Source: Verrucomicrobiota bacterium
GTDB taxonomy: Bacteria > Verrucomicrobiota > Verrucomicrobiia > Opitutales > Opitutaceae
Assembly (NCBI GenBank): GCA_016235555.1
Contig: JACRKC010000079.1
Span: 1 to 56,459 of the forward strand
Direction of reading: 5' to 3'
Length of the DNA stretch: 56,459 bases
The notes beneath the pieces are model-generated. The model did no database searches, was not told where the DNA came from, and saw only the letters and a list, made by a program, of their open reading frames with translations. This document shows positions 9,161 to 43,714 of the stretch, piece by piece; within the stretch, counting starts at the first letter, position 1, and each line of letters begins with the position of its first letter. Position numbers and translations under genes: made by a program.

Positions 9161-11929
9161 TCACTTCGTTTGAAACAGCTCGCTCTGCACGATTTCGCGA
9201 ATGAGGGCGCGGACGCCGTAGTGGTTGGGAGCCGTGCGTGCGAGGATGCGATCGAGCGCGGGACGGTCGGAGAAATTCACGCGCGAGCCGGTCGCGAAAA
9301 TGAGCAACTGGCTGGCGAGGTGGCGCGCGATGGGCAGTTCGTCCTGCACCACGAGTTGTTTGAACTCGCGCACGTCCCGGTAGGCGCGGCCATCGGGCAG
9401 CTCACCCGCAGCGTCCACCGGTAAACCGAAATGAAACGCGAACGCCTGCCCATTCATGCCGTAGCCGGGCGCGGGTTTCATCTTGTCGTCGACGGCGCGG
9501 TAGCGCTCGCGGAAGCCGCCCATGACGTCATAGTGCTCGAGCGCGAAGCCGGCGGGATCCATCTTAATGTGGCACGAGGCGCACGAGGGATCCTCGCGGT
9601 GCTTGGCGAGTTGCTGCCGGATGGTAACCGCACCGCGGATGTCGGGCTCGACCGCTTTCACGCCGGTCGGCGGCGGCGGCGTTTCGAGGCCGAGGATGCG
9701 CTCGGTGATCCAGTGGCCGCGCAGGACCGGCGAGGTCGTGGTGCCGTTGGCGGTGACTTTGAGCACGCTCGCCATCGTCATGAGTCCGCCGCGATCGCTG
9801 CCGGGCGGGAGCGTGACGCGTCGCATCGGCGCGCCGTGCACGCCGGGGACGCCGTAGTGGCGCGCGAGCCGCTCGTTGAGAAACGTGAAATCGGACGCGA
9901 CGATGTTGCGCACGGGGTGATCGCCGCGCACGAGCTCGGCGAAGAACAGCCGCGTCTCGTCGATCGCGGCGAGCTTCAACGGGTCGTCGAGTTCGTAGTC
10001 GTTGTAGATGGTCGAGGATGGCGAATTGTCGTCGACCTTCCGCAAATCGAGCCAGTAGTCGGTGAAGGCCTCGACGAAGCGTTCGGCGCGCGGATCGCGC
10101 AAGAGGCGCTCGGTCTCGGCGCGGAGCACGTCGGGTCTGCGCAGCTCGCCGCTCTCGGCGAGTGCGCGCAGCGCGGCGTCGGGCGTGGAATTCCACAGGA
10201 AGAGCGAGAGCCGCGTGGCCAGCGCCATGGCGTCGAGCCGGCCCGCTTTCTCCTCGAGAAACACAAAACCCGGCGACGCCAGCACGCCCGTGTAAGCCGT
10301 GAGCATCGCGCGCGCGAAACCTGCGCCAAGCGCGAACTCTTTCTGAAACAGTTCGAGAAAACCGCGCAGCTCGTCGTCGCGGACCGGGCGCCGAAAAGCG
10401 ACGCGCGTGAAATTCCGCAGCAACCGCTCGGCATCCTCCGCCGGCTGGTCGGACACGACTTCGACCATCAAGCCGGGTGCCGCGCCGCCACGCCCACCGC
10501 CGCGGCCGCCCCCACGCCCGGGCCCGAAGCCGCCACGGCCGCCGCCCGCGCCACCGATATTTTCGAGCGGCACGCCACCGCGCTGGCCGGCTTCGACGCG
10601 CCGCATCGGCAGTGCGCCGAACAGAAGTTTGTAGCCCGCCCCGGCGGACGCGTCGTCGAGCGGCCCCTCGACTTCGAGCCACTGCACCGCATAGCCGGGC
10701 ATGCCTTCCTTCGTCGCGAGCGGGTTCACGTATTGCTCGTCGGTGCCGTTCACGCGCGTGCGGAAGAGCCTCATGCCATCCGTGCGGATTGCCTCGCCGG
10801 CGGCGAGCGTCGCCTCGATCTCGCCGACGGACGGCTCGGGCGTGAAATCGACCACGCCGATGGGCCGCGTCTGCCCGGAGCTTTGCGCGTAGAGGCCGAT
10901 GGGCTCGTCGTTGCGGCCGGGCCACACCTCGTCGAGGTTCGGCCGGTGCCAGACGGGGAGCCAGTAGACGGGTGCCTTCTCCGCGCCCTGCCCTTCGTAG
11001 AACCAGCGCCCGATGCCTCCGCCGCTCACCCAGACCGTGTAGCCTTTCACGCGGATGCGGTAACGGCCCGCGGCCGGCGCACTAAAACCCCAGCCGTAGC
11101 CGCCGGCGTCGCTGAAGATGCTGGAAACCTTCCCGACGGCCTCGCGCTCCTTCGTCTCGGGGCTGCTGTTCGGCGCGCGGCCGGCGCGCACGTCGGGCTG
11201 CGCGCGCGAGTCGAGCACGGGAAACGCCAGCCGGTCGGGCAGCGTGCCGTTTTCGCGCGGCCAGTAGGAAAACGTCCCGAACGTCTCGCGCGCGTAGATG
11301 CGGCGCGCCGCCTTTTCCGGCCGCTCAAACGCCGCGCCCATGGCCTGCCGCATCGCATAGTCCGCCGCGGCCAGATAGCGCTCGATCTGCACAAACGACA
11401 CGTCGAGCGCCTCGGCGCTCTTGTTGTAGCCGTGCTGTTCGCCGTCGAGCGGCAGCTTGTCCTTCACCTGCGCCCAGGGCACGTGCAGCAGATCGCGGAG
11501 GGCGTTTTCGTATTCGTAACGATTGAGCCGGCGCTGCACGGCGCGGCCGTCGCGCGCGACCAGCACTTGCTCCGACGCCGTGAGCGTCGACGCCATCGTC
11601 GACACGAACTTCTCCAAATCCGCCGCCGCGGGCCGCGGCTTTTTCTTCGGCGGCATCTCGCCCGCCTGCACGCGGTCATGCACCTTCACCCACAGCGCGA
11701 AGTTCGCCGCGTTGCCAGGCTCGTAGGCGAGGCTGGTGAGATCGAGGTCGTTCTCCTTGTCGGTTTCGTTGTGGCAACTGGCGCAGTGCTGCTCGATGAA
11801 CGCCGTGGCGGCCGCCGGCGGTGGTGCCGACCGGCCCAACCCCATCGTGCCAAGGAGCACCGCCGCGAGGCGTCCCAGACCAACGACGCGAGAGGACGTG
11901 CAGCGGTGAATGATCGGGAACGGGATCAT
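9161..11929 (-). CDS. Multi-domain DUF1592/1588/1585-type cytochrome c protein
   Basis: A 922-residue exported protein of the planctomycete-type cytochrome group. After a signal sequence comes a cytochrome c-like segment with CASCH (C49, C52, H53), then the DUF1587-type start [16 protein letters not shown], the DUF1595/1592 region ([30 protein letters not shown]), DUF1588 with a second CASCH followed by [13 protein letters not shown], and the C-terminal DUF1585 region. Two heme sites therefore look possible. A Gly/Arg-rich insert (residues about 458-484) interrupts it. The ATG at 11929 is chosen because upstream codons encode no signal sequence. It is first gene of an operon with DUF1552 and a small secreted protein. 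The redox partner is unknown. Confidence 0.88.
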
Positions 11930-12022
11930 CGATTCGAAATGGGGCAGGGATTGAGAGACGCGACGCGGAGCCGCGCTGGGGAAAGACGGCGCAAAAGTGC
12001 CGGGGTTTTCAACCCGCCAAAA

Positions 12023-12069
12023 GGCATAGTGCCCCACCCCGGCCGCGCACTATGCCTTGGGGCATAGTG
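12023..12069. promoter_or_regulatory. Three-half-site palindromic element between divergent operons
   Basis: CACTATGCC at 12048-12056 and GGCATAGTG at 12061-12069 form a perfect 22-base palindrome around TTGG, and a third GGCATAGTG lies at 12023-12031. The element sits about 95-145 bases from both the 11929 and 12173 start codons, midway between two divergent DUF1592-DUF1552 operons. This is the position expected for a shared operator, though it could also be one of the dispersed palindromes of this genome. Confidence 0.45.
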
Positions 12070-42401: not shown

Positions 42402-42403
42402 GA

Positions 42404-43714
42404 TCAATTCTGGAACAGCAGCGGCGCGAATTCCTTCAGGCTGCGGCGCCACGTGAGAAATTCGTGCGCGGTGCGCGGCGAGATGTAAGTGTGGACGTTC
42501 TTGAGGCCGGACGCCTTCAACGAGTCGGCATACTCCGCCAGCGTCTTGGAGCCGTTCTCGACGGCACCGTAGCTGACGAACGCGACCTTCACGAGGCGGT
42601 TGAATTCGTCGACTTTGGCCAGCGGGCTGTTCTCCGCCTTGGGATCGCCGAGGGTGCCGCCGCTGAAAATGCCGATGTGCGAAAAGGTATCGAGGTGCGA
42701 CAGCCCGATGTTGCGCGTCTGCATGCCACCCATCGAGAGCCCGGCCATGCCGCGGTGCTCACGGTCGGCGAGCGTCCGGTATTTGGCGTCGATCGTCGGG
42801 ATGATGTCCTGGAGCAGGATGTTTTCGAACTGGGTGAAATTCATCCCGCCGGGCCCGCGTCCGCCGAAGCCGCCGCGGCCCACCGCCGACGGAGCAGCGC
42901 TCGCTGCCGCCGGCGTTATCCCTGACGGGGCCGCGGCGGCCAAGTTGGCGGCAGGCGCGCCCGGCGCCGTCGCATTCGGCGCGACCAAATTGCTGCCCGG
43001 GCCACCGCGACCGCCGCCGCCGCGCGGTGCAGCGAACAGACCGCTGCCACCGCCGTTGTCCATCACGATGAGCATCGGCTTGGCTTTCCCTTCGGCGATG
43101 AGGTTGTCCAAGATAAAGTTCGTCCGACCTTGGACGGACCAAGCCGTCTCGTCCTCGCCCGCGCCGTGCTGCAGATAGAGCACGGGGTAGCGCGCCGTCG
43201 GATTCTTGTCGTAGTCCGGCGGCGTGTAGACGAAGCACCGCCGCCACGCCTTGCTGACGGTCGAGTAGTAGGGCTGCTCGCGCACGGTGCCATGCGGCAC
43301 GTCCTTGGCCGCGAAGAAGTCCATGTCGTCCGACGGCACGTCGATGCCGCTCATCCACCGGCTCGAGCCAAAGAATGTCCGCGTGTTCGGATCGGCAAAC
43401 GCGGCGCCGTCGACCTTCACTTGATAATAGTGAAAACCCTCGACGAGCGGCGAGGTGACGATGGTCCAGATCCCGTCGGGGTCCTTGTTCACGGTGAGCG
43501 GTGGGTTGCCGATCGTGACCGAAACTTCCTTGGCGTTGGGCGCGTTGATGCGGATCTTCGCGCGCTTTTCAGAGTTGAGCTGCGGGTAGTCCTGGCCGGG
43601 GGCGACGTAGGAGATCGGTTTCCAGTCGTCGGCGGGTGGCGTGCCGGTTTGAGCGTGGCCGCACGTGCCGGCCAAAGCGAAAGCTAACATCGGCAGGGAG
43701 AGATTCGATTTCAT
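42404..43714 (-). CDS. Secreted feruloyl-esterase-like enzyme with N-terminal E-set domain
   Basis: A 436-residue exported enzyme with the same plan as the one at 26018: signal peptide, E-set domain ([30 protein letters not shown]), then a CE1-like hydrolase with [21 protein letters not shown], nucleophile elbow GLSMGGMQ and probable catalytic His in [12 protein letters not shown] long Gly/Ala/Pro/Asn/Arg-rich insert (about 223-290) interrupts the hydrolase in the same region as in its relative. ATG 43714 begins the signal peptide; TTG 43753 upstream adds nothing recognisable. It is the first gene of an operon continuing through esterase, GH43, an unknown gene and the metallo-hydrolase, and abuts the recombinase remnants. 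Confidence 0.92.

Follow-up and report, generated by a model that had tools for sequence, protein, structure and literature searches.

Gly/Ala/Pro/Arg-rich tracts recur in unrelated exported proteins of one Opitutaceae locus and seem to be kept by selection on the protein

Here we describe low-complexity tracts rich in Gly, Ala, Arg and Pro (GARP) in nine exported proteins encoded on contig JACRKC010000079.1 of a Verrucomicrobiota bacterium (Opitutaceae; assembly GCA_016235555.1). The entire contig of 56,459 bases forms the window of the analysis; the genome comprises 8.03 Mb in 140 contigs. The tracts were found by scanning translated genes for windows rich in these four residues, the genes and signal peptides being called by simple purpose-written scripts. 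All nine tracts reported in a first-pass annotation were found in frame at their places, mostly with slightly wider edges (Table 1). Their carriers are two DUF1592-type cytochromes, one PVC-type heme protein (DUF7133 and F5/8-type C), four CE1 esterases, one pectate-lyase-like protein and one GH43 protein with a ricin-type lectin match. The possibility of a foreign contig in the bin was rejected: no second full-length copy of the window PNPase was found in the genome, and the GC content is 0.652 vs 0.659 in a random sample, hence the contig is consistent with its genome.

Eight of the nine carriers are called exported by the signal-peptide predictor. In the ninth (frame 22636-23865), a GRGGRGG stretch of about 8 residues lies just past a signal peptide that was recognised by eye; the protein is counted below among the 14 window proteins of the cytoplasmic class, because the start chosen by the gene caller (23035) lies downstream of its signal peptide and tract. 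Pooled over 13 loosely delimited stretches (515 residues), two of which, in a TonB receptor and in a signal-peptide region, are not inserts, the composition is 30% Gly, 22% Ala, 16% Pro, 8.7% Arg and 0.2% Lys. The tract of the 9161-11929 protein contains four closely spaced RGG triplets, and the other tracts contain fewer. No clear tract was seen in the neighbouring proteins, namely two DUF1552 proteins, a SASA esterase, a GH51-type arabinofuranosidase, two TonB receptors, a metallo-hydrolase and a sensor kinase. One of the two TonB receptors has a weak Gly/Ala-rich stretch (28053-28139).

Table 1. Tracts of the window and the adjoining tract-free DUF1552 genes
Feature	Position	Strand	Carrier and context
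GARP tract, 28-residue core	10472..10591	-	DUF1592-type cytochrome 9161-11929, ahead of the DUF1595/DUF1592 part
GARP tract inside the PSD4 (DUF1592) domain	13730..13846	+	second DUF1592-type cytochrome 12173-14683; Pfam match split after profile position 76
GARP-like tract	18605..18784	+	PVC-type heme/DUF7133 protein 16088-18859; begins where the F5/8 type C match ends on its C-terminal side
Short GRGGRGG stretch	22840..22911	+	CE1-like esterase, frame 22636-23865; directly after the signal peptide; weakest of the nine
GARP tract in the loop between a core strand and a helix	26435..26617	-	CBM48-CE1 esterase (predicted) 26018-27340
Second, N-terminal Gly/Pro/Arg stretch after the signal peptide	27227..27298	-	esterase 26018-27340; absent from the first-pass annotation
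GARP tract	36068..36199	-	pectate-lyase-like (PF12708) protein 34697-37699
GARP tract flanked by the GH43 and ricin-type lectin matches	39981..40190	-	protein 39579-41138
GARP linker ahead of the CE1 domain	41964..42047	-	esterase 41190-42401; CE1 loop itself without a tract
Two adjoining GARP stretches in the CE1 loop	42845..43054	-	esterase 42404-43714
DUF1552 (HXXSHH) protein without a tract	7816..9153	-	adjoins the first DUF1592 gene
DUF1552 (HXXSHH) protein without a tract	14680..16083	+	adjoins the second DUF1592 gene

For comparison with the rest of the genome we used a strict definition of a tract (24 residues with at least 8 Gly, at least 2 Arg and 75% GARP). Among the 22 window proteins predicted to be exported, the motif GRGG or GGRG was present in eight and a strict tract in five, and none of the 14 window proteins classed as cytoplasmic had the motif. 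Residue shuffling of the exported proteins gave 1.1 expected motifs vs 22 observed, and 0.05 expected strict-tract proteins vs the five observed. In 80 sampled stretches of the same genome (1.5 Mb), strict tracts were observed in 6 of 400 exported proteins (p = 9e-5 for the difference from the window). Sixty of these stretches were picked by contig number and position regardless of content, and alone gave 2/279 (p = 2.5e-5 vs the window); the remaining 20 comprised nine around CE1 or DUF1592 paralogues, two extending contigs with a known tract gene, and nine contig starts. Thus, one compositional type of insert is indeed concentrated, across unrelated folds, in the exported proteins of this locus, as had been proposed. 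Contrary to the first proposal, it is not confined to the locus: tracts elsewhere were observed in a GH28-type protein, a GH10 xylanase, an oligogalacturonate lyase with an adjoining small exported protein, another small exported protein (where the tract overlaps the signal region) and one large exported protein.

The link to export is less clear outside the window. There, 6/400 exported vs 1/577 other proteins had a strict tract (p = 0.02), after three proteins (L006, L024 and L177, the first of which passes the strict test) had been reassigned to the exported class by eye; as tract-free proteins were not re-examined alike, this contrast is biased in its own favour. Before the reassignment the counts were 5/397 vs 2/580 in all sampled stretches, and 1/278 exported vs 2/361 cytoplasmic proteins in the random ones (p = 1), although one of the two "cytoplasmic" cases is the GH28-type protein, with a signal-like N-terminus missed by the predictor. 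Hence an equal frequency in cytoplasmic proteins, which would have spoken against the link, is neither clearly seen nor excluded outside the window. A split by Arg content, made to see whether Arg-Gly tracts avoid the cytoplasm, leaves numbers too small for a contrast (Arg-containing tracts, 4/400 exported vs 2/458 cytoplasmic; Arg-poor tracts, 2/400 vs 1/458). Two relatives, sampled in stretches picked by contig number, had a tract in 1 of 55 exported and none of 122 other proteins. The genome-wide counts of the underlying DNA patterns were uninformative, being close to those of the mirror pattern (GRGG, 3533 vs 3453; GRGGRGG in any frame, 26 vs 22). No description of such tracts was found in one open-access library of papers, as judged by titles and the beginnings of abstracts.

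The tracts are absent from paralogues. No comparable tract was observed in 15 other CE1 matches and five other DUF1592 copies of the same genome, or in 23 DUF1592 copies from six other genomes of the phylum (25 listed; the family was found in 7 of the 115 genomes searched); reading frames were compared from stop to stop, several being cut off by the edge of the retrieved stretch. The best window in these tract-free copies has 15 GARP residues of 24, vs 23 and 21 in the two DUF1592 copies of the window.

Close relatives, on the other hand, carry tracts in the same loops. A search with the 26018 esterase yielded 13 loci, from metagenome-assembled genomes, most of which carry the label Opitutae, Opitutaceae or Verrucomicrobia. 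Where Opitutae relatives cover the position of the CE1 tract, the tract lies between a strand ending in VMPFGHD (or alike) and a helix starting with YMEKDLL (or alike), and the ten anchored loops have 32-99 residues and a net charge of 0 to +4. None of 15 homologues at greater distance, one of them a paralogue and 14 from other genomes of the order, has a GRGG-type tract at this loop; the homologue from G217 has a longer, Pro-containing loop. Presence at the same positions in all distant homologues, which would have refuted the first interpretation, was therefore not observed. One group of DUF1592 proteins has GARP tracts in a loop at about PSD4 position 76-80 (nine anchored loops, 39-146 residues long, with a net charge of +2 to +4), where the inserts of other groups are charged and for the most part not of the GARP type. 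The N-terminal stretch of the 26018 esterase recurs in L090, L091, L097 and L098, and SASA proteins of two relatives (L100, L102) have C-terminal tracts. As the same loops are filled with tracts of highly variable length and sequence among the Opitutae relatives, the tracts probably grew in loops that were already variable.

A related locus, in G118 (contig C155), shares 16 reciprocal best hits with the window, 14 at 62-92% identity and two at 33-35%. Under a loose definition of a tract, this locus and that of G116 (contig C11) have five tract proteins each, and the other exported proteins of the two contigs have none, apart from one weak case. In both relatives, as in the window, two to three CE1 esterases are grouped with SASA, DUF1592 and DUF1552 genes, and in the window (7816-27340) the DUF1592 and DUF1552 genes form two pairs beside the esterases. 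This conserved grouping suggests a single pathway.

Several features of tract-bearing genes were seen along the way. Within the genome under study, further tract-bearing exported proteins lie at L006:2002-3753 (GH28), L051:8849-9991 (GH10), L160:14495-16769 (oligogalacturonate lyase and small exported protein) and L177:8673-10784 (a dehydrogenase with a Tat signal and, behind it, a short Gly/Arg stretch, recognised by eye). In the relative G124, a Tat-signal protein with molybdopterin-binding domains also has a tract (L275:4423-6609), and contig C85 has five DUF1592 matches within about 21 kb, a local multiplication of the family. Two CE1 esterases of another locus (L101:8391-9713 and L101:6791-8113, minus strand) have an N-terminal LTXXQ-type helical module with an 11-residue tract directly behind it; the Pfam LTXXQ matches are below threshold (E = 7e-4 and 1e-3; 20.7 and 20.3 bits, cut-off 24.3). 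A GH3 enzyme (L102:1741-4383) has a GRGGRGGRAG tract and a helical-looking LTEEQ...LTTAQ stretch in its C-terminal domain, LTXXQ-like by eye and without a Pfam match.

The contigs of relatives (L097-L100; L191-L195, L197) tend to break at tract-bearing CE1 and DUF1592 loops, the DUF1592 contigs ending at the PSD4 loop having been retrieved partly for that reason. In 4 of the 13 esterase loci the contig edge is inside the gene, at residues 244, 271, 272 and 274 of 440, positions in the tract or directly ahead of it; under an even spread the chance of these positions is 2e-4 to 5e-4. Two causes are conceivable, poor assembly of the tract DNA or a difference in its length between strains.

The position of a tract relative to an active site could be considered for the 26018-27340 esterase. 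It has both Pfam domains, CBM_48 (23.4 bits, cut-off 22.4) and Esterase (67.7, cut-off 22), and Ser335 (in GYSMGG) and His421, the catalytic residues by analogy with the family, are invariant in 14 aligned sequences. By domains and conserved residues, the protein is thus a predicted CBM48-CE1 feruloyl or acetyl xylan esterase. Its AlphaFold2 model has the CBM48-CE1 fold (predicted template modelling score, pTM, 0.68), and the best PDB matches are CBM48-CE1 esterases (7b6b, 6ne9, 7b5v, 8bbp). Residues 252-299 are at a predicted local distance difference test score of about 30, so that the tract is predicted to be disordered. By our count of strands from YPVVYLLHG, it would lie between beta2 and alpha2. 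In CBM48-CE1 enzymes the long flexible beta2-alpha2 loop is sequence-diverse, partly unresolved in the crystal and proposed to confer substrate specificity, according to PMC8040265.

If the tracts were a mobile or spreading coding repeat, they should share DNA beyond the protein demand; if they were born by slippage, their internal DNA repetition should be above that of synonymous shuffles. Neither was observed. Words of 12, 14 and 16 bases common to tracts of different genes numbered 24, 2 and 0 vs shuffle means of 25.8, 9.2 and 2.6; shorter shared words were above the mean, yet inside the shuffle range (9 bases, 139 vs 114, maximum 144; 10 bases, 87 vs 72, maximum 102). Internal repetition did not exceed that of the shuffles (9-mers, 22 vs 29.9; 12-mers, 5 vs 4.0; 16-mers, 0 vs 0.6). 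The GC content of third codon positions (GC3) was 0.742 in the tracts vs 0.848 in the rest of the same genes, being lower in all eight window genes, and 0.717 vs 0.835 in relatives (lower in 20 of 25 genes); the same tendency was observed for Gly, Arg, Pro and Ala codons taken separately. Intergenic GC was 0.604 by our gene calls. It follows from the code that an even mix of GC-only codons would give Arg equal to Gly, and the Arg share is well below that.

The ratio of nonsynonymous to synonymous differences (pN/pS; Nei-Gojobori counting on pairwise alignments, without the TonB-receptor stretch) in five gene pairs between the window and G118 was 0.25 in the tracts (bootstrap 0.18-0.33) vs 0.20 in the rest, and in five other Opitutae pairs, three of them sharing sequences, 0.16 (0.11-0.23) vs 0.09. 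Pooled synonymous divergence was no lower in the tracts than outside in both sets (0.54 vs 0.41 and 0.44 vs 0.40), while for single pairs it was below the rest in 2 of 10. The clearest pair is the tract of the 9161 gene, whose 38 gap-free codons differ by 19 synonymous and 4 nonsynonymous changes; the other four window/G118 tracts are less constrained (0.19 to 0.46). Thus, the tracts seem to be kept by selection on the protein, not on the DNA.

With moderate confidence, we favour the explanation that the tracts handle substrate, being disordered and weakly cationic loops and linkers under selection. They would be intrinsically disordered Gly/Ala/Pro-rich stretches by which surface loops and inter-domain linkers have expanded, in the exported enzymes and cytochromes of one locus that would serve to degrade decorated plant polysaccharide. 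Lengthening may have occurred in place, by in-frame insertions and deletions in already variable loops, with selection acting on the amino-acid composition and not on the DNA sequence. In two CE1 esterases the tract would extend the flexible loop flanking the active site, so that there it is most likely a mobile flap or tether that holds or admits the polymeric substrate; in the other carriers the tracts may be flexible spacers between or within domains. Direct observation extends to the position, the composition, the predicted disorder in one esterase, the purifying selection in five gene pairs, the concentration in the locus and the absence from paralogues; substrate handling as the selected function, and one function for all nine proteins, we infer. 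Of the shared functions suggested at first, function as such is likely, since the tracts are kept by selection at the protein level, and strong electrostatic adhesion is doubtful, since the anchored loops, 32-146 residues in length, have a net charge of 0 to +4 and so are only weakly cationic.

Several observations count against substrate handling. The low net charge does not rise with loop length, contrary to what strong binding of polyanions would suggest. L090, L091 and L092 have a short CE1 loop that did not register as a tract, and the 41190 esterase has an ordinary one. The structural model is usable for the 26018 tract only, that of DUF1592 (7 sequences) being too poor (pTM 0.30). Under a tighter tract definition the window/G118 pN/pS is 0.31 (0.18-0.46), and among real tracts only the 9161 pair aligns without gaps, low-complexity alignment being able to lower pN. 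The substrate of the locus is read from the enzyme families. Finally, substrate handling would leave the same composition in the cytochromes unexplained, while assembly of the proteins with one another would explain it.

Among the alternatives, the best surviving, which we still consider unlikely, is that a GC-rich genome fills unconstrained exported loops with Gly, Ala, Pro and Arg codons, selection acting on disorder and solubility only. The great variation of length and sequence among relatives is consistent with this, the tract sites are variable loops anyway, and Pro, Gly and Ala are the most enriched residues of bacterial low-complexity regions in a survey (PMC6821194). However, such an expansion accords poorly with pN/pS of 0.16-0.25, with third positions lower in GC, with the lack of excess repeated DNA words within tracts, with the rarity of tracts in other exported proteins of the same genome and with their absence from paralogues of two families.

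Less probable, yet a live rival, is that the tracts are a common adhesive or condensate-forming address, i.e. that unrelated enzymes and cytochromes of the locus each grew a sticky disordered loop that gathers them into one extracytoplasmic assembly or onto one substrate, as a counterpart of RG/FG condensates. One composition in unrelated folds of a single locus, missing from paralogues elsewhere, would be expected in this case, as would the five tract genes in each of the related loci of G118 and G116 and the selection at the protein level; moreover, Arg and Phe spaced by Gly, as in one 11-residue stretch of the window tracts, resemble RG/FG-rich sticky sequences. Yet the DUF1552, SASA, GH51 and TonB-receptor neighbours in the same locus are tract-free (although the SASA proteins of L100 and L102 are not), no common motif beyond composition was found, and a role as spacers explains the composition equally well.

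We disfavour, as improbable, an ordinary background of such tracts in GC-rich exported proteins, where the clustering merely drew notice: scattered cases elsewhere in the genome and a GRGGRGG pattern hardly above its mirror image would fit it, but the excess in the window (5/22 vs 6/400) and the single case among 55 exported proteins in random stretches of two relatives do not. The GC-rich coding repeat copied between genes, also suggested at first, we regard as refuted for this window: the tracts are alike as protein and GC-rich, and 9- and 10-base shared words lie above the shuffle mean, yet longer shared words are no commoner than in shuffles, GC3 is lower, tract positions are kept between relatives, and synonymous sites diverge strongly while residues are kept.

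It is tempting to discount the low-complexity tracts of GC-rich genomes as noise arising from composition. In this case GC3, pN/pS in two lineage sets, the absence from paralogues and the concentration in the locus point to selection on the protein. If composition does organise an extracytoplasmic degradation pathway, it would be a simple and testable way of grouping unrelated exported proteins, and the presence of a tract could point to partners of families that are still uncharacterised, DUF1592 among them.

Among known systems, RGG/RG-box disordered regions are likewise Gly-rich with several close RGG triplets, as in the 9161 tract. Unlike them, the tracts are in signal-peptide proteins, have more Ala and Pro and no known RNA-binding context, and RNA or DNA binding by exported tracts is unlikely. 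Bacterial Gly/Ala/Pro low-complexity regions are alike in composition, and their conserved presence in prokaryotes is reported (PMC6821194); there, Arg-rich regions are tied to RNA or DNA binding and polysaccharide-related ones mainly to Ser and Thr, whereas here Arg-Gly tracts occur in exported polysaccharide enzymes and cytochromes and are clustered at one locus. Another parallel is the beta2-alpha2 loop of CBM48-CE1 enzymes (wtsFae1A/B, DmCE1B; PDB 6rzo, 6rzn, 7b5v, 7b6b), which have the fold of the 26018 esterase. That loop is flexible, sequence-diverse and near the active site (PMC8040265), and we map the 26018 tract to it; unlike the known loops, the tract is of Gly/Ala/Pro/Arg low complexity and recurs in unrelated proteins of the locus.

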